Assembly (NCBI GenBank): GCA_025517425.1
Contig: JAOPJY010000002.1
Coordinates: 310,001-374,000, forward strand
Direction: 5' to 3'
Source of the DNA: Halobacteria archaeon AArc-dxtr1
GTDB taxonomy: Archaea; Halobacteriota; Halobacteria; Halobacteriales; Natrialbaceae
DNA: 64,000 nucleotides
Every line of letters starts with the position of its first letter. Position 1 is the first letter of the stretch. A model generated the notes under the pieces. It did not search any database and was not told where the DNA came from. It saw only the letters and a program-made list of their open reading frames with translations. The translations under genes and the position numbers were made by a program. Below are positions 35,339-61,149 of this stretch, piece by piece.

Positions 35339-38242
35339 TTAGTTCTGACGGCGCAGGGCCAGCATCGCGGCGCCCAGCAGCGCGGTCAGTGCGACGGCGA
35401 TGCCGAAGCCGGGCGTCTCGTCGTCATCGTCGTCGTCATCGTCATCGTCGTCGTCAGACGTGGCGGCGTCGATTGCGGCAGAGACGCTGTCGAAGCCAGC
35501 CTGGTCGGCTTCGTCGTTGAGGTCGTCAAGGTCGGACTGCGCAGCGTCACGCTCGTCCTGTGCGTCGTCACGCTCTTCCTCGGCAGTTGCGAGGTCGTCC
35601 TCGAGGTCAGCGACCTGGCCTTCGAGGTCAGCAACCTCGTCCTGCGCAGCGTCACGCTCGTCCTCAGCCGTTGCGAGGTCGTCCTCGAGGTCAGCGATCT
35701 GGCCTTCGAGGTCGGAGATCTCAGACTCGAGGTCCGCGATCTCGTCCTGTGCAGCCTCGTAGTCGGACTGCAGGTCAGCGATCTCGTCCTCAGCGTCGGC
35801 GAGGTCGGCGAGCGCGGCGTCGCGCTCGTCCTCAGCGTCGGCGAGGTCGGACTCGAGGTCAGCGATCTGCTCTTCGTTGTCAGCGTTCTCGTCCTCGAGG
35901 TCAGCGATCTCGGACTCGAGGTCCGCGATCTCGGACTCAGCGTCGGCGAGGTCCGAGAGCGCAGCGTCGCGCTCATCCTCAGCGTCCGCGAGGTCGTCCT
36001 CAAGGGACTCGATCTGGCTCTCGAGGTCGGAGATCTCGTCCTGTGCGTCCTCGTAGTCGTCCTCGAGGTCAGCGATCTCGGACTCGAGGTCCGCGATCTC
36101 AGACTCGAGGTCAGCGATCTCGTCCTGTGCAGCCTCGTAGTCGGACTGGAGGTCCGCGAGGTTGCTCAGGATGGAGCCGTTCTCAACATCCGTAGATGTT
36201 TCGTCATTGAGATCGTCCTCGAGCTCGTTAATTTGCACGAGGAAGTCGTTGCTTGGGTACCAGTCCGTGACGTCCACACCGAGCAGGTCGGCGAGGGACT
36301 CGAGGACGGTGTCGGACTCAGATTCGGGGGTGTCCGAGAAGATACCCTCAACGGTCTCCTCTTCGATGCCAGTGTCCTCGGCACCGAACGTGATGCTCAC
36401 TTCGTCACCCTCGTCGCGGTCCGCGAAGTTCTCTGGGTCCTGGAACTGGAAGGTGCGGTCATCCTGGACGGTGACCGTCTCCTCAGTCAGGAAGACACCG
36501 GACTTCTGCACTTCGAAGTCAATCTGGCTGCCGGGGGCAGCGGTGGTGGTGCCGGTGATGACACCGTCTTCGGAGTTGACGATCTGGTACGGCGTCTCGA
36601 CGAGGTCGAGGTCAGCCGTCCGCTCCGTCACTTCGTAGCTGGTCGTAGCGACTTCGGAGTTGTCGTCCTCGTCGTCGTCAGACGATGGGATGTAGTCGTT
36701 CTCTTCGGTGACGTTGAACTCAGTGTCCCATTCACCGTGGTCGTCACCGACCTCGTAGACGAAGTAGACTGTCTCTTCGTCAGGGACAGGGACGACGGTG
36801 AAGTCCTCGTCGTCGAGGTAGGTGTCGTCGTCAAGCTCGGCGAGGAACTCAACGCCGACATCGTCGGTGAGGTTTCCGTCGTCGAAGGCGTAGCCGAAGA
36901 CACCGTTGACGTCCTGCTCGACGATGACCGTGTCGCCCTCTGCGAGCGTGTCATCATCAGTCGAGGCGTCGAGGAGCGTCTGAAGGTCCTCGTAGGAGAG
37001 GTCGTCAACGCCCTCAAGGCCCTCGATGTCCTGGTAGTTTGGTGCGATCGAGACATCGGCGTCACCGGTCGTGCGGTCCTGAAGCGTGGCGACTTCGGAG
37101 CTGACGCGGTTGTTCCAGTCGATGTCGTCGCTAGCGCCCTCCTCGTAGAGCGAGAAGGTGAACGCGATTGCGTCGAGGCGTTCGTCATCCTCTTCGAATT
37201 CCGTCTGATCGATCTCGTCGTCAGCGGAGACGTCGACATCCTCATTGTCGGTCGTGAAGACGTCTTCGACGTCTTCCTGACCGGCGTTGTAGGAGTTGAA
37301 GTCGATGTAGACCTGCTCGTCGTCGAAGTCGCCGTCAAGTTCGAGTGCGACAGCAACCTCGTAGGTCTCGTCATCGTCCTGGCTGACAACGGTGAAGCCG
37401 ATCTCTTCACCGGCGTAGGCTGCCGGCTCGTCGAAGTAGATCGGGATCTGCATCTCGTCACCCGTTGGGGTGTCTTCGATGTCACCGAACTCGATGTCAC
37501 CATCGAGATCCTGCTGGATGTTGATCGTTGCAGTGTCGGAGGCGCCAGTGTCCTGGACCTCGATATCGAATTCGTGCTCACCAGCGGGTGCCTCGGAGAA
37601 GTCAGCGCTGATGTTCTCACCTTCGGCGACATCGTGCGTGGTGCCGTCGAAGAAGCTCGCGACGGTGTCGTCGTCGAGGTCATCACTGCTGATGTCGACA
37701 GTGACCTCACCGCCACGGTTGTCGTCCGTGAAGTTCAGTTCGACATCTTCGAGACCGTCGTCACCCTCAACGAAGTTAGAGGGTTCGAAGTCGAAGCTAA
37801 CCTCCTGAGCGCTCCAGACGAAACTGCTCGAGGTTTTCGTACCTTCGTCACTGATCAGTTCAAGATGAACTCGCTGTTCATCGTCACCGTCTGAAACGAT
37901 CGGAGCAGTATCCTCTGCTTCGAGGGTCAGGGTGTCACCATCAGTGCTAACGTCGCCGATGGTCTCGCCTGGGTTAGACGGTGCCCCCTCAACGATATCG
38001 GCCTGGAACGCACTTGCGTTCTCAACCTGAGGGAGTTCCGTTACAGTCAGCTCTTGTCCTTGAACCAATTCATCTTGGTCGCCGAGGCCATCCCATTCGA
38101 CCTCGCCGACACCATCGTCGTTAACCGCAGCCGCTGCCCCGCCCGCAAACGCAGCGGACATGGCAACGACGGAAAGAACCATCATCGCAGCGAGGAACAA
38201 CGCACGTCCCTTTTCGCGATATGAGGTTTCGTTTCGTGTCAT
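35339..38242 (-). CDS. csg: Probable S-layer glycoprotein with coiled-coil stalk, PGF-CTERM
   Basis: 967 residues. The N-terminus (REKGRALFLAAMMVLSVVAMS) is the haloarchaeal surface-glycoprotein signal (TIGR04207-like), cleaved near residue 38. An acidic beta-rich ectodomain extends to about 660. A coiled coil of about 260 residues (about 665-925) with near-perfect DLESEIA heptads follows, then a run of Asp and PGFGIAVALTALLGAAMLALRRQ, a PGF-CTERM signal for archaeosortase (ArtA) processing and lipid attachment. Haloferax Csg has a Thr-rich spacer before the anchor; this protein has a coil instead. A TATA-like box at 38408-38416 implies a leader of about 145 nt. The gene symbol is by analogy only. 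Confidence 0.8.
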   Translation of the reverse strand: MTRNETSYREKGRALFLAAMMVLSVVAMSAAFAGGAAAAVNDDGVGEVEWDGLGDQDELVQGQELTVTELPQVENASAFQADIVEGAPSNPGETIGDVSTDGDTLTLEAEDTAPIVSDGDDEQRVHLELISDEGTKTSSSFVWSAQEVSFDFEPSNFVEGDDGLEDVELNFTDDNRGGEVTVDISSDDLDDDTVASFFDGTTHDVAEGENISADFSEAPAGEHEFDIEVQDTGASDTATINIQQDLDGDIEFGDIEDTPTGDEMQIPIYFDEPAAYAGEEIGFTVVSQDDDETYEVAVALELDGDFDDEQVYIDFNSYNAGQEDVEDVFTTDNEDVDVSADDEIDQTEFEEDDERLDAIAFTFSLYEEGASDDIDWNNRVSSEVATLQDRTTGDADVSIAPNYQDIEGLEGVDDLSYEDLQTLLDASTDDDTLAEGDTVIVEQDVNGVFGYAFDDGNLTDDVGVEFLAELDDDTYLDDEDFTVVPVPDEETVYFVYEVGDDHGEWDTEFNVTEENDYIPSSDDDEDDNSEVATTSYEVTERTADLDLVETPYQIVNSEDGVITGTTTAAPGSQIDFEVQKSGVFLTEETVTVQDDRTFQFQDPENFADRDEGDEVSITFGAEDTGIEEETVEGIFSDTPESESDTVLESLADLLGVDVTDWYPSNDFLVQINELEDDLNDETSTDVENGSILSNLADLQSDYEAAQDEIADLESEIADLESEIADLEDDYEDAQDEISDLESQIESLEDDLADAEDERDAALSDLADAESEIADLESEIADLEDENADNEEQIADLESDLADAEDERDAALADLADAEDEIADLQSDYEAAQDEIADLESEISDLEGQIADLEDDLATAEDERDAAQDEVADLEGQVADLEDDLATAEEERDDAQDERDAAQSDLDDLNDEADQAGFDSVSAAIDAATSDDDDDDDDDDDDETPGFGIAVALTALLGAAMLALRRQN

Positions 38243-38659
38243 GTGTTGTGTATTGTTGTCGCGTGATCGATTTCGTCGATCAGTCGCGCGAACCGAATGT
38301 CCATGGTCGGACACCCGTTCACTTGGAGCGTGTCGTGGCGACCGGTGACGCCCACACGGTGGGGCGCTGGAGCCGTCACTCACCTCCTACCGGGTAGGGG
38401 TATAGAGTAATTTTAACTATCCTGTAATAAGCTTTCTGTCTGAGTGTCTCGTTTCGTGATGGACGTAGCAGCGGGAGACAGGCCTTCCGTCCCCTGATTA
38501 AGAGTTAATTACCGATGGTTGGTTTCCGATTTCAAGGGCTGCAATAAAATTATCTGCGGAATCTTCCGCCGACGCTGTGAGTACGGAACTGCGGACCGTC
38601 TCGTCGATCGAACACAGTTCGTCGAAACACATTTCACACGTAACGAACGTACCAGGGGC
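38243..38659. promoter_or_regulatory. Divergent promoter region of S-layer and protease genes
   Basis: 417 bp with AT-rich parts in GC-rich surroundings. On the minus strand GTTAAAATTA (38408-38417) is a TATA candidate for the S-layer gene, giving a transcript leader of about 145 nt. On the plus strand AATAAAATTAT (38543-38553) is a candidate for the surface protease gene. TTAAGAGTTAATTA near 38498-38511 is a further AT-rich element, midway. Confidence 0.45.
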
Positions 38660-41422
38660 ATGCGTAACCGGGCGTTACTTCTGAGTTTGGTTCTCGTACT
38701 CGCCCTCTGTGGCGGTGTGGTGACCGCCGGAGCCGGGCCGAGCGACGGGACGGCCCAGGCCACGTCCGGGCAAGAGCTACACACGGTGTCGGCGCCGGAG
38801 ACACTCACGGCGTCCAATCCGGGAACACTCACAGCGTCCAATCCGGGAACACTCACAGCGTCCAATCCGGGAACACTCACAGCGTCCGGGCAGGAAGCGC
38901 CGACGCTGCTCTCATCGCCGACGACCGCCGACTCGTCGGCGACCAACGCGGATTCGCTCCCCGAGGAGCAGATCGCGGTGAGCTACACGTTCGACGTCGA
39001 CGGCGAGGATCCACTGACGGGATCGGTCACCGTCGAGATTCCCGACGCGTATCAGGACCGGGATGGCGAGTTCCAAATCGAGACGTTCGGTCTACAAGTG
39101 ACGTCCACCGAAGGATTCGACGGAGGCGGCAGCACGTACACCTGGGACGGAGAGACCGACGAGGCAGTGCTCTCGTTCGAAACCGACGTGACCAGAGCCA
39201 TCCACTTCGACGGCTACGACGCCTACCACGCCGAGGACTGGGCGCTGGGGCTGTTCGGAATCGACGCGAGCTACGTCGAGGACGGACAGGCGTACGACGA
39301 CGCCATCGTCGAATCCACCGCACCCGGCACACCCGAGGCCACCGTGGGAGCGTGGATGACCTTCGTCGGCGCCCACGACACCACGGCGATCGACACCGGC
39401 GGGCAGACGGTCACGCTGGTCGTCCCCGAGGGAAGCGAACGCGACGACCACGACGAGCTCGTCGCAGCCATCGAAGATGGCGGACACGATCTCCGCGTCG
39501 GCGCGAGATCGGCCGAAGTCGTCGCGATTGCGGCACCGGATCCGATCCGCGAGGGCGGACTGGCGTACTTACACGGCGACTTCTGGACCCACGAGAGTGC
39601 GCCGATCCACACCTGGCTCCACGAGTACGTCCACGCCCGCCAGGGGTACCAGACGGCCGAGTCGGCGGCGTGGCTCACCGAGGCCGAGGCGGAGTTCTAT
39701 CCGAACCTCATGTTCCTCGAGCACGACCACCCGATCGACGTGCCGGGCACCGAATTCGAGGAGTTCCAGCGCGTGCTCGGCTACGACGAGGACGTCGACG
39801 ATCCGACCAACTACGAGGACGTCACGCTCACGGATCCAGAGACGTGGGAGGGGACGCTGGCCGACTACCGGAAGGGCGCGCTCGTCCTAGCCGCCCTCGA
39901 CGCCGAGATCCGCGCGGCGACCGACGGCGAGCGAACCTACGCGGACGTCACGCGCGAGTTCAACGCCCACGATGGAGTCGTCGACCACGACGTGTTCGTC
40001 GAGACGGTCGAGGCCGTCGCCGGCGAACCGATGGACGCGTTCGTCGACCGATACATTACGGGCGAGGAGATCCCCGACCCACCGACCGATCCGGACGCGT
40101 ACGGTACCTGGGACGAGTTTGACGTCTCCCTGGCGGCGACGCTGGGTGAGGTAGCGGTCAGTCCCGGCGAGGACGTCACCGTCCCCGTCAGCGTCACGAA
40201 CGACGGGACCGATCCAGCTGTCGGCGTCGAGGCGACGGCAGACGTTCCCGACGGCTGGAGCGTCGTCGACGCCGACGGCGGGACCGTCTCGGAGGGAACC
40301 GTCACCTGGACCGAGGGCGAACTCGCCCCCGGCGACTCGATCGACGGCTCGATCACGCTGCTCGCACCGGCGGACGCAGACGGGATCGACGACCTGGAAC
40401 TGCAGGTGACCGACGCCGACGAAAACCACGTGCAGACGGGCGTCGAGGGCGACACAGTTACCCCGCCGGAGGCCGCGATCGACGCACCCGCAGTTGCGGT
40501 CGCCGGCGAGGAGGTGACGATAGATGCAGGCGAAAACGGAGCCGACGGCGCGATCGAGCGCTACGAGTGGGACCTCACCGGCGACGGCGCGATCGACGAG
40601 GAGACGACCGAGCCGACCGTCCCCACCGCGTTCGAAACGCCCGACGAGCGCGAGGTGTCGGTGACTGTCGTCGACGAACACGGCTTCGCCGACACCGCGA
40701 CCGCCGAGGTGCTGATCACCGACGTGCCGACCGTCTCGATCGACGGGCCGACGACGCCGGTGGCCGACGAACCGGTCGCACTCGAAGCGATCGTCGAGAA
40801 CGAGATCGGCGCCACAACGGTCACCTGGGAGCTACCCGACGGAAGCGAGGTCGACGGCGACCAACTCGAGCACACGTTCGAACCCGGCACCCACCAGATT
40901 TCGGTGACCGTCACCGACGAGCACGGCGCCGAGGCGACCGCGACTCACGAGCTAACCGCGGTCGAGGCACCTGACATCGAGATCGACGCCCCGGAGACCG
41001 CGGTCGCCGACGAGCCGATCGCGATCGGGGCGGTCGTCGACGCCGACGGCGTGTACACCGTCGAGTGGCAGCTCCCAGATGGCACGCAAGCGACGGGCGC
41101 GACGGTCGACCACACGTTCGACGCCGGCACGCACGTCATCACCGCGGTCGTCACCGACGAGTACGGCGCCGAGGCGTTCTCCGAACACGAGATCACAGTC
41201 GAAGCCGACGAGACCACAGACGACGCGGACGCAGACGTCGGTGACGACACTGCCGATTCGAGCGATCAGAGTGAAGACGAGGCTGCAGATGGCGCGGTCA
41301 ACGAGGAGCCGACCGAGACGGGAGACGACTGGCTGGCGGATGCGACGCCGGGTTATAGCGTCGCGAGCGCGCTCGCGGCGCTCGCCCTCGCTGCGCTGGT
41401 GGTCGTTCGAAACCAGGGGTAA
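38660..41422 (+). CDS. Surface-anchored HEXXH metalloprotease-like protein with PKD domains
   Basis: 920 residues. A signal peptide (1-26) leads to a Thr/Ser-rich linker containing four TLTAS-type repeats. The catalytic-like region has WLHEYVHARQGY (HEXXH at about 321-325) and a following WLTEAEAEFYP (about 338-348) with Glu that could be the third zinc ligand (gluzincin-like). Three PKD/Ig-like domains follow (about 610-870, e.g. TYEWDL-type segments such as RYEWDLTGDG), then a disordered acidic linker and TPGYSVASALAALALAALVVV, a PGF-CTERM variant. It is divergent from the S-layer gene. Protease activity is inferred. Confidence 0.7.
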   Translation: MRNRALLLSLVLVLALCGGVVTAGAGPSDGTAQATSGQELHTVSAPETLTASNPGTLTASNPGTLTASNPGTLTASGQEAPTLLSSPTTADSSATNADSLPEEQIAVSYTFDVDGEDPLTGSVTVEIPDAYQDRDGEFQIETFGLQVTSTEGFDGGGSTYTWDGETDEAVLSFETDVTRAIHFDGYDAYHAEDWALGLFGIDASYVEDGQAYDDAIVESTAPGTPEATVGAWMTFVGAHDTTAIDTGGQTVTLVVPEGSERDDHDELVAAIEDGGHDLRVGARSAEVVAIAAPDPIREGGLAYLHGDFWTHESAPIHTWLHEYVHARQGYQTAESAAWLTEAEAEFYPNLMFLEHDHPIDVPGTEFEEFQRVLGYDEDVDDPTNYEDVTLTDPETWEGTLADYRKGALVLAALDAEIRAATDGERTYADVTREFNAHDGVVDHDVFVETVEAVAGEPMDAFVDRYITGEEIPDPPTDPDAYGTWDEFDVSLAATLGEVAVSPGEDVTVPVSVTNDGTDPAVGVEATADVPDGWSVVDADGGTVSEGTVTWTEGELAPGDSIDGSITLLAPADADGIDDLELQVTDADENHVQTGVEGDTVTPPEAAIDAPAVAVAGEEVTIDAGENGADGAIERYEWDLTGDGAIDEETTEPTVPTAFETPDEREVSVTVVDEHGFADTATAEVLITDVPTVSIDGPTTPVADEPVALEAIVENEIGATTVTWELPDGSEVDGDQLEHTFEPGTHQISVTVTDEHGAEATATHELTAVEAPDIEIDAPETAVADEPIAIGAVVDADGVYTVEWQLPDGTQATGATVDHTFDAGTHVITAVVTDEYGAEAFSEHEITVEADETTDDADADVGDDTADSSDQSEDEAADGAVNEEPTETGDDWLADATPGYSVASALAALALAALVVVRNQG
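38801..38896. repeat. Four 24-bp tandem coding repeats in the protease linker
   Basis: ACACTCACAGCGTCCAATCC plus GGGA recurs at 38801, 38825, 38849 and (partly) 38873, the first with GGC for AGC. It encodes TLTASNPG. The three full copies are almost identical at DNA level, so the array is recent and probably length-variable between strains. Confidence 0.8.
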
Positions 41423-43132: not shown

Positions 43133-44080
43133 TCACTCACTCGAGAGCTGCGTTTCCCGATACCACTCGACTGTCTGTGCGAGGCCGTCTCGTAACGAGA
43201 CTGTCGGCTCGTACTCGAGGGCGGCGGTCGCCTTCGAGATCTCGCCCCTCGAGTGGTCGATGTCGCCCGTCCGGGCGTCCGTGTGGACGATGTCCGACTC
43301 CGTGTCCGTGAGCTCCTGAATGAGTTCGGCCAGTTCGCGAATCGAGATCGCCTCACCGGTGGCGACGTTGTACGCCTCACCCACGGCGTCCGTCGTCGCC
43401 GCCCGGAGGTTCGCCTGGACGATATCGTCGATGAAGACGAAATCACGCGTCTGCTCGCCGTCGCCGTGGACGGTGATCGGCTCGCCAGTGAGCGCTTGCT
43501 CGATGAAGATGCTGATCACGCCGCTGTAGTCGCCCGGCATCTGCCCGGGACCGTAGACGTTGAAGTATCGCAACGCGACGGTCTCGAGATCGTAGAGGTC
43601 GTGAAACTGCCGGGCGTAGTGATCGGTGGCCAGCTTGTCGAGACCGTACGGTGAGGCCGGCTCGGCCGGGGCGGATTCGGGGATGGGAACGTCGTCGGGC
43701 TGGCCGTAGATGGCGGCACTCGAGGCGAGCACGACGCGAGCGCCCTCCCGGCGGGCCGCCTGGAGCAGGTCGAGAGTCGCCCGCGCGTTGATCTCGTGGC
43801 TCTCGACGGGGGCTTCGATCGATCGGTCGACGCTGACCAGGGCGGCCTCGTGAAAGACGAGGTCGACCCCCGCAATCGCCTCGTCGACGGTTGCCCCGTC
43901 GCGAATGTCTCCGTCGATCAGGGTCGCCGCGTCGGGGACGGTCGCGGGGTCGCCGGTCGTCAGTGCGTCGAGGACGAGCACCTCGTTGCGATCACAGAGC
44001 CGGTCGACGAGATGCGAGCCGATGAAGCCAGCGCCGCCGGTGACGAGAATGCGCTGATCCGTGGGTTCGAACGCCGTCAT
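43133..44080 (-). CDS. UDP-sugar (UDP-glucose/GalNAc) 4-epimerase family
   Basis: 315-residue extended SDR. TGGAGFIGSHL near residues 14-24, YGLDKLATD with YxxxK, and the conserved ALRYFNVYGPGQ place it with UDP-glucose/UDP-GlcNAc epimerases and related dehydratases. The Ser of SSAAIYG completes the triad. The start is ATG 44080 (MTAFEP); upstream extension is unlikely. It follows glmS on the same strand after about 110 bp and could supply galactose-type nucleotide sugars for surface glycans. Substrate cannot be told from the sequence. Confidence 0.82.
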   Translation of the reverse strand: MTAFEPTDQRILVTGGAGFIGSHLVDRLCDRNEVLVLDALTTGDPATVPDAATLIDGDIRDGATVDEAIAGVDLVFHEAALVSVDRSIEAPVESHEINARATLDLLQAARREGARVVLASSAAIYGQPDDVPIPESAPAEPASPYGLDKLATDHYARQFHDLYDLETVALRYFNVYGPGQMPGDYSGVISIFIEQALTGEPITVHGDGEQTRDFVFIDDIVQANLRAATTDAVGEAYNVATGEAISIRELAELIQELTDTESDIVHTDARTGDIDHSRGEISKATAALEYEPTVSLRDGLAQTVEWYRETQLSSE

Positions 44081-44192
44081 ACCCAGAGCATCACGGACGA
44101 GCCGTATCACTGTGGCGTTGCGTTCCACAGACTGTGGCGATCGGCGACAGGCAGTCGCCACGCCGCTCGCACCATCAGTGCCCGTATGCTGC

Positions 44193-45992
44193 TTACTGAA
44201 CGGTAACGCTTTTCGCGAGATGGCGGGGTTTGTCGATCGAGCGGCCGAGCTCGTTGGCGATCCAGTAGGAGACGAGCTGGAGCTGGACGTTCGCGACGAC
44301 GGCGCTGGCAACGCCCTCGAGTTCGGGGACGGTGAGGACGTGGTCGGCGTAGCGGTCGATATCGGAGCGCCCGTCGGTGACGGCGACGATGGGGACGCCG
44401 CGGGCCTCGACTTCCTTGACGTTCCCGATCGTCTTATTGGCCTGCTCGCCGTCGCCGGTGACGAGTGCGAACACCGGCGTCTCGGGGCCGACGAGCGCCA
44501 GCGGGCCGTGTTTTAACTCGCCGGCGGCAAAGCCCTCGGCGTGGTTGTACGAGATTTCCTTGAGTTTGAGCGCGCCCTCGAGCGCGACGGGGTAGTGGAG
44601 GCCGCGGCCGATGAAGAAGTACGCCTCGGCGTCGGCGTACTCCCTGGCGACCGCTCTGGCGGCCGGATCGTCTAACACCTGCTGGATCCCGTCGGGGATC
44701 GAGCGCAGGGACTTGATCAGCTCCCGCGAGCGGTGGTCTGTGAGCTGGGCGGCGACCATCGTGAGGGCGGTCTGCTGGCTCGCGAAGGTCTTGGTCGCGG
44801 CGACGCCGATCTCGGGGCCGGCCCGGATGTAACAGACCTCGTCGCACTCGCGGGCGGCCGAGCTGCCGACGACGTTCGTGACGGCCAGCGTGGTCGCCCC
44901 CGCCCGGTTGGCCTCCCGGAGCGCCCGCATCGTGTCGGCGGTCTCCCCGCTCTGGGTGACGCCGATGACCAGCGAGTCGTCGGTCAGGGGCGCCGTCTCG
45001 GCGCGAAACTCGCTCGCGAGGACGGCGCGAGCAGGCGTCCCCCAGCGATTGAGCAGGGACGCCCCGAACATCGCGGCGTGATAGGAGGTGCCACAGGCGA
45101 CGAGCGTGACGGGCGGCGCGCCGGCCGCGACGGAGAGTTCGTCGAGTTCGACCCGGCCGGTGAGCTCGTTGAGCCGGCCGCGCAGACACTCCCGGATCGC
45201 GGCGGGCTGTTCTTCGATCTCCTTGCGCATGTAGTGGTCGTAGCCGCTCTTGCCGGCGTCTTCGGCGTCCCACTCGATCGTCTCGATCGCGCTCTCGACG
45301 ACCGCGCCGTCGGCGTCGGTGATCCGGATACGGTCGGCCGACAGCGTCGCGAACTCGCCGTCCTCGAGGTAGATCACCCGATCGGTGTACTCGATAAAGG
45401 CGGGGACGTCGCTGGCGAGGAAGTGGCCGCGCTCGCCGAGGCCGAGGACCAGCGGTGACTCGTGGCGGGCCGCGTAGACGGTCTCGGCGTCGGCGAAGAC
45501 GGCAGCGACCGCGTAACTCCCCTCGAGGCGCTCGATCGCCGCGCGGAAGGCGGCCTCGCGCTCGCGGCCGGCCTCGAGCTCCCGGGCGATGAGGTGGGGG
45601 ATCACTTCGGTGTCGGTCTCGCTCTCGAAGGCGACGCCGTCGGCGCGCAGCTCCGCCCGCAGGGGCTCGTAGTTCTCGACGATCCCGTTGTGGACGACCG
45701 CGACGCGCCCGTCGGCGTCCGTATGCGGGTGGGCGTTCGTATCCGAGGGCGGCCCGTGGGTGCTCCAGCGGGTGTGCCCGATGCCGACGGGTTCGCCGCC
45801 GGCCGGGCGCTCGGCGAGGGCGTCTTCGAGCGAGGAGACGTCGCCCGCGCGCTTGTGGACCGCGAGGGCGTCGTCGGCGAGCGCGACGCCGGCGGAGTCG
45901 TAGCCCCGATACTCGAGCCCCGACAGGCCGGTCAGCAGCACGTCCAGGGCGTCGGCGTCGTCCTCGCCGACGAAGCCGATGATCCCACACAT
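44193..45992 (-). CDS. glmS: Glutamine-fructose-6-phosphate aminotransferase (isomerizing)
   Basis: 599 residues. MCGIIGFVG exposes the catalytic Cys2 of the glutaminase domain; HTRWSTHG and HNGIVENY support it. Two SIS domains follow, with the sugar-binding blocks CGTSYHAAMFG and VTQSGETADT, and the C-terminal LAKSVTV. It forms glucosamine-6-phosphate, the entry to UDP-GlcNAc. Its ATG overlaps the stop of the upstream glmU-like gene by 1 nt (TGATG, 45990-45994), so the two form an operon. Confidence 0.95.
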   Translation of the reverse strand: MCGIIGFVGEDDADALDVLLTGLSGLEYRGYDSAGVALADDALAVHKRAGDVSSLEDALAERPAGGEPVGIGHTRWSTHGPPSDTNAHPHTDADGRVAVVHNGIVENYEPLRAELRADGVAFESETDTEVIPHLIARELEAGREREAAFRAAIERLEGSYAVAAVFADAETVYAARHESPLVLGLGERGHFLASDVPAFIEYTDRVIYLEDGEFATLSADRIRITDADGAVVESAIETIEWDAEDAGKSGYDHYMRKEIEEQPAAIRECLRGRLNELTGRVELDELSVAAGAPPVTLVACGTSYHAAMFGASLLNRWGTPARAVLASEFRAETAPLTDDSLVIGVTQSGETADTMRALREANRAGATTLAVTNVVGSSAARECDEVCYIRAGPEIGVAATKTFASQQTALTMVAAQLTDHRSRELIKSLRSIPDGIQQVLDDPAARAVAREYADAEAYFFIGRGLHYPVALEGALKLKEISYNHAEGFAAGELKHGPLALVGPETPVFALVTGDGEQANKTIGNVKEVEARGVPIVAVTDGRSDIDRYADHVLTVPELEGVASAVVANVQLQLVSYWIANELGRSIDKPRHLAKSVTVQ

Positions 45993-47167
45993 CAGGCCCG
46001 CACCTCCACGCCGTCGTCGATGGGCTCGCGGACGGTCGAGCCGGCGCCCACGCGGGCGTCGGCACCGACGATCGCCCCCGGCGCGAACGTCGAGCCACCC
46101 TCGTCGCGGGCCCGGTCGGCAAACAGCGCGCCGAAGGCGACGTCGTGGTGGACCGCGCCGTGCATCCGGACGTCGCTCGGGCCGCCGACGACGGTCGACC
46201 CGGGACCGATGCGGGCGTTGCGCCCGGCGACGCAGTCACGGACCGTCGCGCCGTCGGCGATGCGGGTGTCGGCGTCGATGACGGAGTGGCGCACCGTCGC
46301 GTTGGCGCCGACGGTCGCGTTCTCGCCCAGACAGACGTTCGGGCCGACGACCGCGCCGGGGCCGACGACGCAGTCGGCGGGGACGACGACGGGATCGACG
46401 ATGGTCGCCGTCTCGTGAACCGTCGCGTCCGGCGCGATGCGGGGCTCGGTGCCGTCGTCGGCCGCGAGCAGGTCGTCGGCGATCTGGAGGAGATCCCACG
46501 GGTAGGTCGCGTCGATCCAGGTGCCCCCCGAGCGGACGCCGCGGACGACCGCCTCGCCCGCGATGAGCTGGGAGAGGGCGTCGATGAGGCTGTGTTCGCC
46601 GACCTGGGGGTCGACGGTCCGGATCGCCTCGAAGATCGGCTCCTCGAAGACGTAGACGCCGGCGTTGAGATCGTACGCGCGCTCGTCGTGGGGGTTCTCG
46701 ACGAGTTCGGTCACCCGATCGTCGGTGGTGAGAATCCCGCCGTACTCACCGACGTCGCGGGCCGGAATCAGTCCCAGCGTGGCCGCGGTGCCGGGCTCGT
46801 GGGCGGCGAGGACGTCCCCGACGATCGTGCTGTCGACGATCTGGTCGCCGTTGACGACGAGCGTCGGCCCCGAGACGGCCTCTTCGGCGGCCAACAGCGC
46901 GTGGCCACTACCCAGCAGTTTCTCCTGGGTGACATACTGGATGGGAACGTCCCGATAGCTCGGGCCGAAGTACGACTGGACGCGGGTGCGCTGGTAGCCA
47001 ACGACGACGGTGAGTTCGCGGACGCCAGCCTCGATGAGGGCGTCGAAGACGTGTTCGAGAATCGGCGTGGTGGCGACCGGCAGCATCGGTTTCGGCCGAT
47101 GTTTCGTCAGCGGGCGGAGCCGTTTCCCCTCCCCCGCCGCGAGTACGATCGCAGAACGGTCGGTCAT
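45992..47167 (-). CDS. glmU: Bifunctional sugar-1-phosphate nucleotidylyltransferase/acetyltransferase (GlmU-like)
   Basis: 391 residues. The nucleotidylyltransferase domain starts IVLAAGEGKRLRPLT and includes RPKPMLPVA, VVNGDQI and the EGSGHALL-like LLGSGHALLAA. From about residue 255 the protein is a left-handed beta-helix of hexapeptides (APDATVHETATIVDPVVVP). The archaeal type makes UDP-GlcNAc from glucosamine-1-phosphate and, given the glmS neighbour, that role is likely. A TATA-like box centred at about 47195 lies 28 bp before ATG 47167, so the message is probably leaderless. Confidence 0.88.
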   Translation of the reverse strand: MTDRSAIVLAAGEGKRLRPLTKHRPKPMLPVATTPILEHVFDALIEAGVRELTVVVGYQRTRVQSYFGPSYRDVPIQYVTQEKLLGSGHALLAAEEAVSGPTLVVNGDQIVDSTIVGDVLAAHEPGTAATLGLIPARDVGEYGGILTTDDRVTELVENPHDERAYDLNAGVYVFEEPIFEAIRTVDPQVGEHSLIDALSQLIAGEAVVRGVRSGGTWIDATYPWDLLQIADDLLAADDGTEPRIAPDATVHETATIVDPVVVPADCVVGPGAVVGPNVCLGENATVGANATVRHSVIDADTRIADGATVRDCVAGRNARIGPGSTVVGGPSDVRMHGAVHHDVAFGALFADRARDEGGSTFAPGAIVGADARVGAGSTVREPIDDGVEVRA

Positions 47168-47570
47168 AGAGAGCGTCGTCGTGGCCACCACGTTATTCTT
47201 TTGTTTGTCAACTATTTCCAGGTAGAATCGTGCTGACCGGACGCAGACGGGGAAAGAATCCAGAGAACCCGTGCCCAGGGGCCACACCATCGTCCGGCAG
47301 GCCCGCCGCCAGCGACTCGGCGCGTTCTGACCGTCGCGAGTGGTGCCAAATAGACACACGTAGTTCCGCTGGAGCGCAGGTGCCCGCTAACCGGCCCGAC
47401 GGACTGGCGACCAGTCAGCTCTGTCGAAATCTACCTTTGCGACGCGGACCGGGGAGTGTCCGGTCAGACCGGGCTGAGGACGGATGCAATGGCCGTCTGA
47501 GGAAATTCACTGCGTTGTTCACCGTGATTCCGACCACCCGGAGTCACGGCCCCCGCTCTCGGCGCCGGCG
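47168..47570. other. Intergenic region upstream of glmU-like gene
   Basis: 403 bp. The minus-strand AAGAATAACG box (47191-47200) is the probable promoter of the glmU-glmS operon. Short open frames in the rest are Arg/Ser-rich and unconvincing. No RNA gene is evident. Confidence 0.5.
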
Positions 47571-52714: not shown

Positions 52715-55700
52715 TCACCCAGCTGCTTCTGCGATCCGTCGTCGGTACCACATCACGGACCCTCCGGTCAGTCCGGCGGCGGCGAGCGCCGCGAGCGGGA
52801 GCCACCAACTGTCAGCTACCGTCGGGTCGTCGTCCGACTGGGGCGGTTCGACGGTCAGCGTCTGTGTGTCTTCACCGTCGATCGCCAGCTCGTACGCACC
52901 AGGCTCGTCGGGCTCGAACGCGAACGAAATCTCCTCGCTCGCACTTCCGTCGAGTATCACCGCCTGCGTCTCGACGACCTCGCCATCGACGACTAGGTCG
53001 ACCGAGCGCTCGGCCGTATACTGTCCCCGGTTCGTGACTGTCGCCGTCACCGTCGCCGTCTCGCCGGCCGAAATTGTCGCTGCTTCGAGGGTGGTGTCAG
53101 CGACCGTCGTCGACGGGACGCCGGTGCCAAGCGAGAACACTGAGAGGCCATCGGCCATCGCCTCGAAGGTAGCGTCCGTCTCAGTGTCTGCGACGTGGTC
53201 GGTCGACAGCGGTTCCCAGCCGTCCTCGCCCTGTCGGTAGAGCGTGAGCTCCTCGGAGTCGACACCGAGCTCCGCGAGGTACGCACGGTCGACACTGAAC
53301 GCCAGGGTGACGTTCGAGGCTTCGCCCGGGTCGACGTTGTACTCGAGGTGGACGTAGCCACCCGACAGCGTTCCCGTCTCCGTCTCGAACGTTTCGGCGG
53401 CTGGGGCGAGCAGCGCCTCGGTCTCCGGGGTCGTCTCGGTCGATCCACCCGGCGTGAGATCGTCCGTGTACGACGAGACGTTGACCCAGAGCTCACGCTG
53501 GGACGCCAAATCCAGATCCATCGAGAGACCGGTGACCGTCATCGACTCCGTCCCCGAAAGGGCAACGGTACTTTCCGTGGTCGTCTCGTTGAGCGAAATC
53601 GTCGAGCTGGGGCTACTAATCCAGGTGTAGCCGTCTTCGACGTGGACCGGTTCGACATCGATCACAGCCGTCGCCGTCTCGTCGCCGTACTCGGCGGTCA
53701 CCGTCGCGGTGCCCGCCCCGTATGCGTCGACCGTCCCGGTCGGGCTGACGGTGGCGACGCCAGCATCGTCCGTCGAGAAGGTGGTACGGGCCGTCACGTC
53801 CGCGACGGTCCCATTATGATACGTCGCAGTCACCGTAACCGTCGTGGACTCGACCGTCGTCAGTTCGGCCACGCCGAACTCGGCGGCCAACTCGACTACG
53901 GGCGAGGGCTCGACGGTTACCGCGGCGGTCGTCGAGATCGCGTCGTCACTCGTCAGTTCGGTTCCGACGGTGTACGTGCCAGGGGTGTGGCTCTCGAAGG
54001 GCACCGATGCGACGCCTGTAATGTTCGTTTCGACCGGCTCTTCGATTGCGGTGCCATCGAGACCGTCGGCGTCAGCAACGGTGACCGACGCGCCCGGAAC
54101 CGGATTATCGAACGCGTCAAACGCCGTGATCGCGATCGAATCGGCTACGCCGGCCTCTGCGGTGACGGAGTCGGCGACGAGGGTGGCCGCCTCGGCGGGC
54201 TCGACCGTAATCTCGACCGCGTTCGATTCGACGCTATCGAGTTCGGCGGTCACCGTGTAACTGCCGACGGTCGTCTGGTCGAACGCCCCCTCCGCGCTCA
54301 CGTTCGTCCAGTCGAACGCTGCATCGGCGGTTTCGTTTTCGTTGCCGAACACGTCGTACGCGGTGGCGTCGAACATAACCGTCTCGCCGGCGGTGATCGT
54401 CCGGTCGCTCGCGGGAGAGATCTCGACCGCGATGACGGTGGCTGGCTGGACGGTTACCGTCGTCGTGTCAGCTTCGACGCCAGCCAGTTCAGCCGTTACC
54501 CCGTAGGCTCCGGCAGTCGTGTTTTCGAAGGTGCCGTTCGCTGTGGTGTTCGTCCAGGTAAATTCGGTATCGGCGGTTTCGTTTTGGTTGCCGAACGCGT
54601 CGTAGGCCGTGGCGTTGAGTTCGAGTTGCTCGCCGGCGGTGAGTACCTGGTCGCTTTCGGGATCGAGTTCGACGGTCTCGACTGCGGCCGGCTCGACCTC
54701 GATCGTGATCGGATCGGATTCGACGCCGGCCAGCTCGGCGGTCACCTCGTGAGTGCCGGCAATCGTGTTCACGAAGGTGCCGCTCGCTGTGGTGCTCGCC
54801 CAGGTGAAGGCAGTGTCGGCAGTCTCGTTCTTGTTGCCGAACTCGTCGTAGGCCGTCGCGTTGAATTCGACCGTCTCACCCGCGGTGATCGTCCGGTCGC
54901 TCGCGGGATCGATTTCCACCGTGTCGACGGGTGCTGGCTCGACCGTTATCGACACGGTGTCCGACGTGACGTTCTCGAATGTCGCGGTCACATCGTAACT
55001 GCCGGCGACCGTGTGCTCGAACGTCCCGTCTGTGGTCGTATTCTCCCACGTGAACGCCGTGTTGGCCGCCTCGTTCTCGTTACCGAACGCGTCGAGAGCG
55101 GCCGCATCGAATTCGACCGTCTCGCCGGCCGTGATCGTCTGGTTGTTCGTGGGATCGATTTCGACGCGCTCGACCGCGGCCGGCTCGACGGTGAACGCAT
55201 CGGTCAGTGCCGTCTCAGCTGCGGCGACGCCCTCGTCGGCAGCATCGATGCTGAACGCGAGACGGTACTCGTCGGCGGTTTCGATCACCAGCTCGTCGAA
55301 CGTGGCGAGCCCATCACTGGCAGTTTCGACCGTCGTCTCGGGCGAGACGATGGCACCGGTACCGTCGACCGCGTCGACGGTCATATCGACGCCTTCGACG
55401 GGGTTGTCGAACTCGTCGGTGACGATCGCTTCAGGCGGTCCGGTGATGGGGCCGCCCGCAGACTGCGTGCTGTCTGGTTGCGTTTCGACTGCGATGGCGT
55501 CAGCGTCGGCCGATTCGACGTCGAACGAGTCGGTCTGTGTCTCGTCGGCGTTCGCAACGTTCGCGTCACTGTCATCGATCGAGAACGCGAGTCGGTAGTC
55601 GTCCACGACGTCGATTTCGAGATCGTCGAAGGTGGCGAGACCGGCTGCGTCGGTCTCGACAGCCGTCTCGCCTACAGTGATCGAGCCAGCGCCCTCGATG

Positions 55701-58700
55701 GCGTCGACGGAGACGGTGACGTCCTCGACGGGGTTGTCGAACTCGTCGGTAACGGAGGCGCGTGGCGGTCCAGTGATCGCCTCACCGGCAGTCTGCGTCC
55801 CGTCAGGCTGTGTTTCGACGGCGACCGAACTGGCAGCAACCGATTCGACGGTGAAGCTGTCGGTCAGTGCCGTCGCATCACTCCCGACGTTCGCGTCACC
55901 GTCATCGATCGAGAACGCGAGTCGGTAGTCGTCAGCAGTCTCGATTTCGAGGTCGTCAAAGGTGGCGATGCCCGAACTGTTGGTCGAAGCCATCATCTCA
56001 CCTGCAGTGATCGAGCCAGCGCCGTCGATGGCGGCGACGGAGACGGTGACGTCCGCGACGGGGTTGGCAAACTCGTCGGTGACGGTGACCGTTGGTGGTC
56101 CAACGAGGTTCTCACCGGCCGCGGCCTCGGTTGGTTGGGTGTCGATGGCAACGTCGATCGCGTCGTCCGGAAGGACCAGGAACGGGATGGTCTGAGCGGT
56201 ATCGGACTCGTCGACGGAGTCGTCTGCAGCGTCGATGCTGTACTCGAACCGGTACGCATCAGCCTCCTCAATCGTGATTCCGCTGAGCATGGCGAATCCC
56301 TCGAAGGTAGTCTCTGTCGTCGTGTCTCCGCTCGTAATCGAACCCGACCCCTCAATCGCCTCGACTGTGATAGTGACTCCTTCGACGGGGTTGTCGAACG
56401 CATCAGTCACTTGTGCGAGGAGAGACGAGGGCAGTTCCTCGCCAGCAACCGTGTCAGAAGGAGCGGAGCTCTCCGACACCGAGACGGCGTTCCCTGCTTC
56501 CACCGTGAACTCCTCGCTCGTGGCGCTCACACTCGAGTTGGCCGCCACCTCGAACGTGAGGGTGTACGCCTCCGCCTGTTCAATGTGCAGGTCGTCGAAG
56601 GCGACGAAGCCACTCGAGTCCGTCTCGAGGGTGGTGGTTCCGCCCAGGTCGCCTGATCCGCTGGCCGTGACGGTCACGTTCTCCTCACTGATGGCGTTTC
56701 CGAACGCGTCGGTGAGGTTCGCCGTCGGTGGTCCCTCGATGGATTCACCGGCGGTAGTCGTCTCCGGTTGGGTTTCCACGGTCAGGAGATCTGGATCGGC
56801 GGCGGTGACGGTGCCGTTGATGCTGTCACCCTCCGTGATCTGGTTTCCGTCGACCGTCAGCATGTGATTGTCGTCGGCGGTCGTCACACCCTCGAAGCTC
56901 AGTACCGTGGTGCCATCGTCGCGGATATCAGTATGAACGTTGTGGACCTCTCCATCGTACTCTGAGGTACCGTTCAACTGAGTGGTCTCCGTCCAGAGGT
57001 TCCCATACTCGTCGGTTACTTTGACGTCCAGCGAAAGGAATTCGCCAGCGGTCACCGAGTACGTCTCGTCGAGGAGCGTCACGTTGTGCGCTCCGGTCGC
57101 TTCCGTCTCGATATCGACGCTATCGCCACTCACGCCATCCGCATCGACCGTCAGCGTGTGGGTTCCGCTCGCTGTCACGGTTTCTTCAGGGATGTCGAGG
57201 TCCGCATAGCCGCTTTCGTTCAACGGCAGCGAACCCCCCTCGAACACCTCGCCATCGAGATCTGATGTCACTATCAGGTTCTCGAGTTCTTTGTCCGAAC
57301 CCAGATTGCCAAGCACATCCGTGGCGTTGATCGTCAGCGTGAACCCATCACCTGCCGTGATCTCTTCGGGTGCCGAGGTAATGTGCAGAGAGTCGAGTGG
57401 GGCTGGCACGACCGTGAAGTCGTTCGAGGTGGCGTTGATAGCTGGATCGTCTTCGACTGCAATCGTCAGGTTGTACTCGCCCGTGGTGTTGATCTGGTTC
57501 TCAGAGAAGTGCACAGTGCCAGCGAGCCCAGTCTCACGAGTCTTCGGGTCCGAAAGCTCGCCGGGTCCGTTCGCAGTTCCCGTCACATTGACGCCAAGAA
57601 CGGGATTTCCGTATGTGTCGGTGACTTCGACAACCGGGTTACTGAGATCCTCGCCTGCAGTCTGGTCAGAGAGGAGAGTACTGGTGAACTCAATCGAGGC
57701 AGGATCGGCGGCATCCACCTGAATAGCCGTACTGTCGGGAGAGACGCCATCCGCATCGACCGTCAGCGTGTGAGCGCTGTCGGCCGTTGTAATCTCGTCG
57801 GTGCCCCAAAAGACCGGCATTTGTCCATTCGAATCCACCTCACGGGAACTTTCGTTACTCACCGCTCCATCGTGTTCGGAGGTGAGCGTGACGGTCTCGA
57901 GGGTCTGGTTGACTGCCGGATTACCGAACTGATCGGTCACTTCCACAGTAACAGAGCTGGCAGCGCCAGCCGAAATCGTAACTGGATCGTTCACAATCTC
58001 GAGTGCGTCCGCGGCTGCGGCACCCACGTCGATGTCTGTACTGTCTCCATCGGCGTTACTCGCATCGAGGGTCAGCGTGTGGCTCTCGTCTGCGTTGGTG
58101 AGCGCCACGTCGACTGTTGCTCCGCCGTATTCGTCGAGATCGAGTGTGGACGCAGAGACGAGCGTTCCGTCTTCGGTGTGTTCGGAGGTGAGCGCCACGT
58201 CTTCAGCAGTCACGTTGGCCGCCACGTTACCCAGCACGTCAGTGCCGTTGATGGTGATGGTGAACTCCTCACCCGCAGTGGCCGAATCCGGCACGTCCGT
58301 AATCTCGAGTGAGTCGAGGTCGCTCGCGCCGACGGTGAACGTCTGACTGTCGACACTCGCCGATTCGCCGACGTTGATCGCGGCGCTGTCGATGCTGAAC
58401 TCCAGTCGATAGTCACCAGTCTCGTTGATCGCCAGATTGCTGAACGTAGCGATTCCGTCACTGTCCGTCTGCGAGGTCGTCGTACTCGCGTCCGTGAGCG
58501 ATCCCGGCCCGTCGATGACTTCGACCTCCACGGTGGCGACTCCGACCGGATTGCCGAACTGATCGGTCACCTTCGCCGATGGGGAACTGCCGCCGTCGCC
58601 CGTGATCGTCTCACCGGCGGTTTGTTCAGTGTCGGGTTCGATTTCCACCGCTACCGACTCGGCGTCGTCCGGCGTCACCGTCAGCGTCGCCGTCGTGGCC

Positions 58701-60727
58701 GTCTCGTCTTCGTACTCTGCCTCGAAGTGAACCGTTCCGACACCCGTTGTCGTCACCGTGCCATCGGAGGCAATCTCTGCCACACTCGAGTCACTCGAGG
58801 TGAGCGAACTGAGATCGGTGACGGTTGCGGTGGTGTTGTCGTCGTAGGTCGCGGTGACCGTCACGTTCGTCGTCTCGCCCTGTGTGAGTTCGGTCTCCTC
58901 GAGCGAGACCGAGAGCGAGGAGACACCCACCAGTCCTGCTGGGGGGTCCTGGGCGGCGGAGTGCAGGTAGGGGTAGGAGATCTCTGCACCCGTCTCGACC
59001 GCCCAAGTGTCCGAGAAATCGAGTCCGTCCATGTGATCCGTGGCCGCCCCACCGCGCATCTCGGCAGTGGTCAGGCCGGTGCCACCCGCCGAGTCGTGTT
59101 GCGTCGTGGTTTCAGTGTCCCAGTAAGCGTCTTCGACCGTGGCACCCTCCTCGTTCGTGCCGACTAAGCCGCCGACGGTGGTGTCACCGGAGACGTTCCC
59201 GGCCGCGTACGACTGGGTGATACTCGCGTCCTCGCCGGTGTTGTGGCCCACAAGCCCGCCGACGTTCGATGAGCCAGTGACATTCCCGACAGCGTAGGTA
59301 TTCGTCACGAGGTCGTCTTCGTTCTTCCCGATGAGGCCGCCGACGTTCTCCTCGCCCGTGACGTCCACGTCAGCGTAGGACTGTTCCACCGTGCAGCAGG
59401 GGGACTCTCTATGGTTGGAGCCAATCAGCCCGCCGACGTTTTTCGCGTCTTCAGCGACCACCGTGCCAGTGGCACTCGAGCCGACGACGGTCAAATCAGC
59501 ACCCCTCCCAAGGAGTCCACCAACGTTCTCACCGCTCCCGTCGCCGGTGATGGTACCGGTGACGGATGAGTCCGTGATGGTGCTGCTGACGTGTTCCCCG
59601 ACGAGGCCACCCACGTCGTCGGAGCCGGTGATCTCGCCGGTGACGTGGCTTCCGGTGATGTCGCCGCCCTGAGTGTTCCACCCGACAAGGCCGCCCACTC
59701 TGTTATCGCCGGTGATCTCGCCGGTGACAGACGACTCCGAGATTTCCCCGCCGGAGTTGTGCCCGACGAGGCCACCCACCCTGCTGTTGCCGGTGACGTT
59801 CCCGTTGACAGCGGAATCGATGATGTCGCCGTTAGAGTTGCTTCCGATGAGACCACCCACCCCGTCGTTGCCGGTGCTATTCCCGCTGGCAGCGACATTC
59901 GTGAGTTCGCCCTCCTGGGTATTCCACCCGACGAGCCCCCCCACGGTCGAGCCATCGCTGGAGACATCGCCTGTGGCGGACGACTCCTCGATGGTGCCCC
60001 CAACGTTCCACCCGACGAGCCCCCCCACCCTGCTGGAGTCGCCGGTGACGTCGCCGGTGGCAGACGACTCCGAGATGGCACCGTCGTCGTTCTCCCCGAT
60101 GAGCCCGCCCAGTCGACCCTCACCCTCGACGTCGACGGTGGCGGACGAGGCCGAGATATCGCCGGAGCTGAACCCAACGAGGCCGCCTACCCTGCGAGAG
60201 TCGCCGGTGACCTCCCCACTTGCGGACACATCCGTGATGTCGCCCTCGTTGAATCCAACGAGGCCTCCTACACCGTCGTCGACGCCACCCGCACCGGTTA
60301 CGTTGGCATCGACCAACGTGAGATCCCGAATCTCGGCGTCCTCGGTTGTGGTGGCAAACAGCCCGACGCGGTCCTCGTCGCTGCGATTGATGTACAGGTC
60401 CGCGATGGTGTTGTTCGCGCCGTCGAACGTACCCGCGAAGTCGCCGATCGGCTCGAAGCCATCGCCATCGTTCCACTCTTCGGTCGCACTCGCGTCGATG
60501 TCCCCGGTCAACACGTAGTTCTCGTCCAACCCGTGGTCCTCGAGACACTGCAACTGACTCACGGTCGAAATCTCGTAGTAGCCGGAACTGTTCGGCTGGT
60601 ACTCGACTTCGCTACAGACGGGCGCACTGTCGGCTGCCCCAACCGTCCCGGCGAACCCGACGCCCACGACGATCCCAACACCGAGGAGCGCCACGGCCGT
60701 AACGATCAACAACGCCCGGCGAATCAC
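52715..60727 (-). CDS. Giant GLUG/Ig-like repeat surface adhesin
   Basis: 2,670 residues from GTG 60727, immediately before RRALLIVTAVALLGVGIVV, a signal peptide. Residues about 35-105 have two Cys (VCSEV, QLQCLED). GLUG-type beta-helix repeats (VGGLVGxN with SYAxGxVTG) fill about 100-560. A Big_2-like domain, about ten invasin (Big_1)-like repeats of about 110 residues (VTDEFDNPVEDVTVSV, with FDDLEIETADDYRLAF) and four 82-residue repeats (about 1845-2175) follow. The C-terminal region includes a PGF-pre-PGF-like domain, a CARDB-like domain and a final helix with a RRR cytoplasmic end. The TTG at 60904 is an unlikely start. It would be an outer-surface adhesin. Confidence 0.82.
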   Translation of the reverse strand: MIRRALLIVTAVALLGVGIVVGVGFAGTVGAADSAPVCSEVEYQPNSSGYYEISTVSQLQCLEDHGLDENYVLTGDIDASATEEWNDGDGFEPIGDFAGTFDGANNTIADLYINRSDEDRVGLFATTTEDAEIRDLTLVDANVTGAGGVDDGVGGLVGFNEGDITDVSASGEVTGDSRRVGGLVGFSSGDISASSATVDVEGEGRLGGLIGENDDGAISESSATGDVTGDSSRVGGLVGWNVGGTIEESSATGDVSSDGSTVGGLVGWNTQEGELTNVAASGNSTGNDGVGGLIGSNSNGDIIDSAVNGNVTGNSRVGGLVGHNSGGEISESSVTGEITGDNRVGGLVGWNTQGGDITGSHVTGEITGSDDVGGLVGEHVSSTITDSSVTGTITGDGSGENVGGLLGRGADLTVVGSSATGTVVAEDAKNVGGLIGSNHRESPCCTVEQSYADVDVTGEENVGGLIGKNEDDLVTNTYAVGNVTGSSNVGGLVGHNTGEDASITQSYAAGNVSGDTTVGGLVGTNEEGATVEDAYWDTETTTQHDSAGGTGLTTAEMRGGAATDHMDGLDFSDTWAVETGAEISYPYLHSAAQDPPAGLVGVSSLSVSLEETELTQGETTNVTVTATYDDNTTATVTDLSSLTSSDSSVAEIASDGTVTTTGVGTVHFEAEYEDETATTATLTVTPDDAESVAVEIEPDTEQTAGETITGDGGSSPSAKVTDQFGNPVGVATVEVEVIDGPGSLTDASTTTSQTDSDGIATFSNLAINETGDYRLEFSIDSAAINVGESASVDSQTFTVGASDLDSLEITDVPDSATAGEEFTITINGTDVLGNVAANVTAEDVALTSEHTEDGTLVSASTLDLDEYGGATVDVALTNADESHTLTLDASNADGDSTDIDVGAAAADALEIVNDPVTISAGAASSVTVEVTDQFGNPAVNQTLETVTLTSEHDGAVSNESSREVDSNGQMPVFWGTDEITTADSAHTLTVDADGVSPDSTAIQVDAADPASIEFTSTLLSDQTAGEDLSNPVVEVTDTYGNPVLGVNVTGTANGPGELSDPKTRETGLAGTVHFSENQINTTGEYNLTIAVEDDPAINATSNDFTVVPAPLDSLHITSAPEEITAGDGFTLTINATDVLGNLGSDKELENLIVTSDLDGEVFEGGSLPLNESGYADLDIPEETVTASGTHTLTVDADGVSGDSVDIETEATGAHNVTLLDETYSVTAGEFLSLDVKVTDEYGNLWTETTQLNGTSEYDGEVHNVHTDIRDDGTTVLSFEGVTTADDNHMLTVDGNQITEGDSINGTVTAADPDLLTVETQPETTTAGESIEGPPTANLTDAFGNAISEENVTVTASGSGDLGGTTTLETDSSGFVAFDDLHIEQAEAYTLTFEVAANSSVSATSEEFTVEAGNAVSVSESSAPSDTVAGEELPSSLLAQVTDAFDNPVEGVTITVEAIEGSGSITSGDTTTETTFEGFAMLSGITIEEADAYRFEYSIDAADDSVDESDTAQTIPFLVLPDDAIDVAIDTQPTEAAAGENLVGPPTVTVTDEFANPVADVTVSVAAIDGAGSITAGEMMASTNSSGIATFDDLEIETADDYRLAFSIDDGDANVGSDATALTDSFTVESVAASSVAVETQPDGTQTAGEAITGPPRASVTDEFDNPVEDVTVSVDAIEGAGSITVGETAVETDAAGLATFDDLEIDVVDDYRLAFSIDDSDANVANADETQTDSFDVESADADAIAVETQPDSTQSAGGPITGPPEAIVTDEFDNPVEGVDMTVDAVDGTGAIVSPETTVETASDGLATFDELVIETADEYRLAFSIDAADEGVAAAETALTDAFTVEPAAVERVEIDPTNNQTITAGETVEFDAAALDAFGNENEAANTAFTWENTTTDGTFEHTVAGSYDVTATFENVTSDTVSITVEPAPVDTVEIDPASDRTITAGETVEFNATAYDEFGNKNETADTAFTWASTTASGTFVNTIAGTHEVTAELAGVESDPITIEVEPAAVETVELDPESDQVLTAGEQLELNATAYDAFGNQNETADTEFTWTNTTANGTFENTTAGAYGVTAELAGVEADTTTVTVQPATVIAVEISPASDRTITAGETVMFDATAYDVFGNENETADAAFDWTNVSAEGAFDQTTVGSYTVTAELDSVESNAVEITVEPAEAATLVADSVTAEAGVADSIAITAFDAFDNPVPGASVTVADADGLDGTAIEEPVETNITGVASVPFESHTPGTYTVGTELTSDDAISTTAAVTVEPSPVVELAAEFGVAELTTVESTTVTVTATYHNGTVADVTARTTFSTDDAGVATVSPTGTVDAYGAGTATVTAEYGDETATAVIDVEPVHVEDGYTWISSPSSTISLNETTTESTVALSGTESMTVTGLSMDLDLASQRELWVNVSSYTDDLTPGGSTETTPETEALLAPAAETFETETGTLSGGYVHLEYNVDPGEASNVTLAFSVDRAYLAELGVDSEELTLYRQGEDGWEPLSTDHVADTETDATFEAMADGLSVFSLGTGVPSTTVADTTLEAATISAGETATVTATVTNRGQYTAERSVDLVVDGEVVETQAVILDGSASEEISFAFEPDEPGAYELAIDGEDTQTLTVEPPQSDDDPTVADSWWLPLAALAAAGLTGGSVMWYRRRIAEAAG
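54200..55180. repeat. Four tandem 246-bp coding repeats in the giant adhesin
   Basis: The GCGGTGATCGTC-like anchor (encoding TITAGE) recurs at a 246-bp period (about 54387, 54633, 54879, 55125). Each unit encodes 82 residues with AGETVEFNATAYDEFGNKNE and WTNTTANGTFE. Units are highly similar, so expansion is recent or maintained by gene conversion. Confidence 0.75.
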
Positions 60728-61149
60728 GCCACCCACCCACTGTCTCGGGCGGTCAGCAACTCGTCGATCCGGAAGGGTGCTGTGGCTCGGTAGGAGTTCG
60801 CGGTCAAGGGTGGGTCCGTGGGAAGCGTGGGTAGGTGTTGCATAGGTCCTCAGAGCACGAATCGAGAGCCGACACCTGGTAGGGCGTGCTGGCAACGAGA
60901 CCAAACCCGATTCGTACGACTATCTTCTCTCATCTATCGGAGGAGTTGGCTTAGCGTTACTGTCACCATATGTTGAATGTGGTCGTATTATTGTCATATT
61001 TGATGATATTCGGTACGCCATCTCACTCCAAAAGCTGGGCGTTAAACCGACTCAAACAGCCGTTATCGCCCGAACAGCAGAAGCGGGTTCGGTGCCGACG
61101 ACAACCGGCCACCTATCGAAGACGGACGATCCAGTTGGGCCGGCTTTGA
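60728..61149. promoter_or_regulatory. Intergenic region upstream of giant adhesin gene
   Basis: About 420 bp before the adhesin start. The far half (about 60915-61020) is markedly AT-rich, with TGTCATATTTGATGATATT and CACCATATGTTG-like elements, probably the promoter region. A leader of up to about 190 nt would follow. No gene was recognised. Confidence 0.4.

Follow-up and report, generated by a model that had tools for sequence, protein, structure and literature searches.

A haloarchaeal S-layer glycoprotein with a predicted coiled-coil stalk between its ectodomain and its membrane anchor

Apart from the S-layer, haloarchaeal cells have no wall, and the spacer of the S-layer glycoprotein sets the pseudo-periplasm. 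In one published survey, all haloarchaeal S-layer proteins analysed were csg-like, and coiled-coil segments were placed in S-layer proteins outside this group (PMC8640222). In Sulfolobus, the coiled-coil stalk of SlaB is a trimer with a helix of 132 residues (PMC10903991; PMC6911244 offers a further precedent for the stalk), and the stalk of tetrabrachion from Staphylothermus marinus is a tetramer of 70 nm (PMC5744192). In a literature search with most subscription journals outside its scope, no paper on a coiled-coil haloarchaeal S-layer protein was found.

The gene described here lies on the reverse strand of a 64,000-nucleotide stretch of the Halobacteria archaeon AArc-dxtr1 genome (contig JAOPJY010000002.1, positions 310,001 to 374,000), hereafter the window, to which all positions refer. 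The open reading frame, strand and coordinates of the original prediction were correct, and the 967-aa product is laid out as follows.

35339..38242, reverse strand: gene for an S-layer-type surface glycoprotein of 967 aa, read from ATG without internal stop
38126..38242, reverse strand: N-terminus with haloarchaeal surface-glycoprotein signal peptide, residues 1-39 (TIGR04207 match at residues 11-39)
36593..38125, reverse strand: acidic ectodomain, residues 40-550 (aligned with the ectodomains of S-layer proteins from its family)
36353..36592, reverse strand: BGTF surface domain, residues 551-630 (NF045517)
35501..36187, reverse strand: coil, residues 686-914, 33 heptads in one register (helix predicted at 688-911; net charge -93)
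35420..35455, reverse strand: 12 consecutive Asp between the coil and the anchor, residues 930-941 (sequence)
35342..35419, reverse strand: PGF-CTERM anchor ETPGFGIAVALTALLGAAMLALRRQN, residues 942-967 (TIGR04126)

The gene had been predicted to code for an S-layer glycoprotein with a signal peptide, an acidic ectodomain, an Asp run and a PGF-CTERM, and all of these were recovered. Against the NCBIfam models, the signal peptide scored 37.6 bits (TIGR04207, cut-off 24.6), the BGTF domain, which is the final beta domain ahead of the coil, 45.2 bits (NF045517, cut-off 40) and the PGF-CTERM 40.2 bits (TIGR04126, cut-off 24.5). Asp and Glu account for 31% of ectodomain residues 40-660, the 12 Asp residues stand directly before ETPGFG, and five N-glycosylation sequons are present in the ectodomain (residues 75, 170, 210, 457 and 510). 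In the source genome (2.8 Mb in 5 contigs, 98.8% complete), the 967-aa protein is the single match to TIGR04207, and archaeosortase A is encoded in the same genome (TIGR04125, 316.9 bits, cut-off 75). Its anchor, PGFGIAVALTALLGAAMLALRRQN, is of the AAMLALRRQN type common to the S-layer proteins of its family; different anchor sequences were seen in the further PGF-CTERM proteins of the genome that were read. The codon use of the gene (GGT 0.43, GCT 0.33, GTT 0.26) shows the preference common to S-layer-type genes, for which the means over 181 genes of many haloarchaea were 0.40, 0.23 and 0.19, respectively, whereas the ten neighbouring genes gave 0.12, 0.06 and 0.09, and the preference was also absent from the three thermosome genes and from most other PGF-CTERM genes of the genome.

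When the ectodomain was compared by blastp with members of its family, matches of up to 153 bits were obtained, and a profile of 14 sequences led by the 967-aa protein matched the csg structure 7PTP with E=3.8e-14, a match made in part by the low-complexity tail and the anchor. The NCBIfam equivalog NF041335 for ArtA-dependent S-layer glycoproteins, which needs more than 1100 bits over the full length, gave 26.2 bits. Since the four relatives tested also remained far below its cut-off (at most 116.9 bits), the model is too narrow to delimit the wider class. In all defining features open to testing, the protein falls within the haloarchaeal S-layer class, and the assignment of 35339-38242 as the gene of an S-layer glycoprotein is supported.

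Other genes of the window may also have to do with the cell surface. The divergent neighbour (38519-41422, forward strand) codes for a protein with PKD domains and a HEYVH motif of the kind seen in zinc metalloproteases; its PGF-like tail scores below the cut-off, and it is possibly a surface protease next to the S-layer gene. Sugar-nucleotide genes at 43133-47359 (reverse strand; epimerase/dehydratase, SIS plus glutamine amidotransferase, nucleotidyltransferase) possibly serve the synthesis of surface glycans, and a frame of 2729 aa (52715-60904, reverse strand), in which GLUG motifs and Ig-like domains occur, is probably a giant surface protein. No conserved gene neighbourhood with S-layer loci of the same genus was seen, an empty result obtained without a positive control.

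A heptad coil of 260 residues had been predicted between ectodomain and anchor. The coil proved to be real and continuous, but its extent is about 229 residues (686-914), the predicted limits of 665-925 being slightly wide. Over residues 690-915, the mean Lupas-type score was 2.34, compared to 1.32 +/- 0.06 (maximum 1.53) in 500 composition-preserving shuffles, and the maximum in the ectodomain was 1.04. The score of the coil was higher than that of each of the 500 shuffles, so that acidic composition, the background against which it was to be judged, does not account for it. Two other approaches are independent of the Lupas matrix. In a Fourier test, the hydrophobic period of the coil was 3.50 with a power of 42 (shuffle maximum 12), and AlphaFold2, run on the single sequence without alignment, predicted one helix from 688 to 911 with a pLDDT of 72-83 over residues 701-900, whereas its model of the ectodomain was unusable (mean pLDDT 46). 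No residue between 690 and 911 is off register, and 686-914 is free of stutters.

The 33 a positions of the coil are occupied mainly by Ile (12) and Leu (8), followed by Arg (5), Tyr (3), Asn (2) and Val (2), and the 32 d positions by Leu (16) and Ala (14). Positions e and g are nearly all Glu, Gln or Asp, and the coil as a whole carries a net charge of -93. Since none of the 32 g-e' pairs has attractive charges, the coil would depend on salt. It contains no Pro, few Gly, five Arg and no Lys, and a single N-glycosylation sequon at its edge. A stable single alpha-helix was rejected on account of the five Arg and the lack of Lys, and hits of the coil against families such as SMC, Rad50, CENP-F and lamin were not accepted as homology, being generic coiled-coil similarity. 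At the DNA level, the coil is made of degenerate repeats of 21, 42, 84, 147 and 168 bp, each a multiple of seven codons. Mismatches between repeat copies are spread equally over the three codon positions and, therefore, give no clear sign of purifying selection.

To see how common such a coil is, we surveyed 181 other haloarchaeal proteins with a TIGR04207 signal, 111 from the protein's own family and 70 from other families. A comparable coil before the anchor was found in only one of them, P0002 of genome G162, which belongs to another family and to the genus g50. Two further g50 species, G185 and G193, carry a coil in the same place. L159_-1119 was left out of this count, its score of 1.77 extending over only 30 residues inside the ectodomain. 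A class-wide search with the coil as query, in which only six candidates were scored per genome, returned mostly SMC-like frames; the rarity figure, therefore, rests on the direct survey of the 181 proteins. Two scans over genomes of named species and one over plasmids brought up no useful relatives. Coils ahead of a PGF-CTERM are not confined to S-layer proteins, since a nucleotidase-like frame (L262, genome G213) has a short coil ahead of a GPGF anchor.

The coil had also been thought to replace a Thr-rich spacer, and this did not hold. None of the S-layer proteins in the other four genomes of the genus (G018-G021) has the coil, and in the three that were aligned, an extra beta-sandwich-like segment and an acidic low-complexity linker stand in its place. 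Rough sorting of 158 haloarchaeal tails gave 101 with acidic low complexity, 35 rich in Thr and 20 with other low complexity, so that Thr-rich spacers are in the minority. The linkers of the relatives are likewise built of repeats and freely variable. In the 967-aa protein, the flexible spacer of the canonical csg architecture, Thr-rich or of other low complexity, is absent, and the heptad coil and the Asp run are found instead.

The best explanation, which we hold to be rather probable, is that of an S-layer glycoprotein borne on a paired coiled-coil stalk of up to about 34 nm that spaces the lattice from the membrane. The chain would be exported, its Ig-like ectodomain would form the lattice, and its C-terminus would be processed by archaeosortase A and then lipid-anchored. 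Between the BGTF domain and the anchor, we infer that the unbroken helix of some 229 residues pairs in parallel with that of a neighbouring subunit, most likely as two strands. At 0.1485 nm per residue, such a rod would measure 34 nm when upright and fully extended; it might keep the lattice away from the membrane and, beneath the lattice, tie adjoining hexamers to each other. Since the Glu and Asp side chains repel each other, folding would be expected to require molar salt or divalent cations.

Ile at a and Leu at d favour dimers, in which charged or polar residues at a are also better tolerated. A trimeric assembly had been suggested for this coil, but it contains no trimer motif R-h-x-x-h-E, and its core residues, with Ile at a, Leu or Ala at d, and Arg, Tyr or Asn in several of the a positions, speak for two parallel strands. 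At the dimeric lattice interface of Haloferax volcanii csg, which is made up of domains D4 and D6 of adjoining hexamers (PMC8640222), two C-termini could come together and form such a two-stranded coil. However, the pairing of S-layer C-termini cannot be assumed, since in M. hungatei each spacer runs to the membrane on its own, at a distance of about 40 A from the next (PMC11641113).

Three other readings were weighed against the paired, upright stalk. In one of them, which we regard as unlikely, the coil is real without being an upright spacer, and would instead join subunits side by side, lie along the membrane or serve as a dock for other surface proteins with coils. A possible docking partner is encoded in the same genome (L146:8747-9895, 382 aa), with a coil and a PGF-CTERM of its own, and a rod of 34 nm far exceeds the height of 12.5 nm quoted for the S-layer complex of H. 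volcanii (PMC5744192). However, the coil directly joins the last ectodomain to the membrane anchor, and with no Pro, few Gly and no break in register, it offers no place for folding back. The coil of the 382-aa protein is long and carries sequons, and this protein could span the same gap.

Less probable still is a neutral replacement, in which a growing heptad repeat took over the acidic linker's role as a loose tether without any specific function in pairing or length. The DNA repeats, with lengths from 21 to 168 bp that are each a multiple of 21, indicate growth by duplication; their copies have diverged equally at all codon positions, and the repeat-built linkers of the relatives vary freely, too. 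Yet one register has been kept over 33 heptads despite this extensive divergence, and the g50 coils in this position are made of quite different residues. The last alternative, that the 967-aa protein is a minor surface protein and the main S-layer subunit another, is the most improbable of the three. Although the genome has eight PGF-CTERM matches, one of them in a frame of 3136 codons, only the 967-aa protein has the TIGR04207 signal, its anchor is of the family type, its ectodomain aligns with the S-layer proteins of the family, and its S-layer codon signature is missing from most other PGF-CTERM genes.

The g50 proteins (P0002 of G162 and those of G185 and G193) resemble the 967-aa protein in having a BGTF domain that ends in F[SA]DT[PA]E, followed by a coil and a PGF-CTERM, and their BGTF domains group with its own. 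Their coils differ in being shorter (106-141 residues over threshold), rich in Asn, Thr and Gln, and not followed by an Asp run, and their N-terminal ectodomains fall elsewhere in the tree. About ten N-glycosylation sequons are found in the P0002 coil; in the g50 coil of L201:229-2715, about ten lie within some 130 residues. With residues 1-530 of the 967-aa protein as blastp query, the best matches were in its own family, whereas with residues 531-650 they were the three g50 coil proteins (65.9, 62.4 and 59.7 bits; next 48.5). The tree built from 96 BGTF domains united the four coil proteins in one group with support of 99/85, the stretch used taking in the start of the linker; when cut before the linker, support was 88/83, under the strong threshold and with the bootstrap not settled. 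The N-terminal tree placed the 967-aa protein closest to its own family, though not within a strongly supported set. This suggests that a C-terminal module is shared and has been exchanged between families, although like demands on a coil-borne domain could also draw BGTF sequences together. It is conceivable, though we put it forward only tentatively, that BGTF, coil and PGF-CTERM are exchangeable as one membrane-proximal module, which passed from one haloarchaeal family to another and came to stand under different lattice-forming N-termini. If so, the distance from S-layer to membrane would be set by a swappable rod of variable length.

If the rod stands upright and extended, the coat may lie much farther from the membrane than usual. 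Since the length of the rod can be calculated and close relatives have no coil, it would become testable whether the spacer sets the distance from membrane to lattice, and also how a coiled coil that has a net charge of -93 and lacks attractive e/g pairs can fold in molar salt.

Compared to the described systems, the 967-aa protein is closest to csg and other haloarchaeal S-layer glycoproteins, with which it shares the TIGR04207 signal type, the acidic beta ectodomain, the BGTF domain and the archaeosortase-type anchor, and, as in csg-type systems, one protein would be both lattice former and anchor. It differs in the spacer, an O-glycosylated Thr spacer in csg and a coil of about 229 residues here. 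In architecture, with no homology claimed, it resembles Sulfolobus SlaB, in which beta domains are followed by a C-terminal coiled coil raising the lattice above the membrane, but SlaB is an anchor protein of its own, has a transmembrane helix and forms a trimer, with a helix of 132 residues. Lattice-forming arms are also borne on a long coiled-coil stalk in the tetrabrachion of S. marinus, which, however, is four-stranded and right-handed, with 11-residue repeats over 70 nm, in contrast to the 7-residue repeats of the coil described here. Coiled-coil S-layer stalks are already established or predicted in Sulfolobus and Staphylothermus, and what is new here is this type of spacer in the haloarchaeal class.
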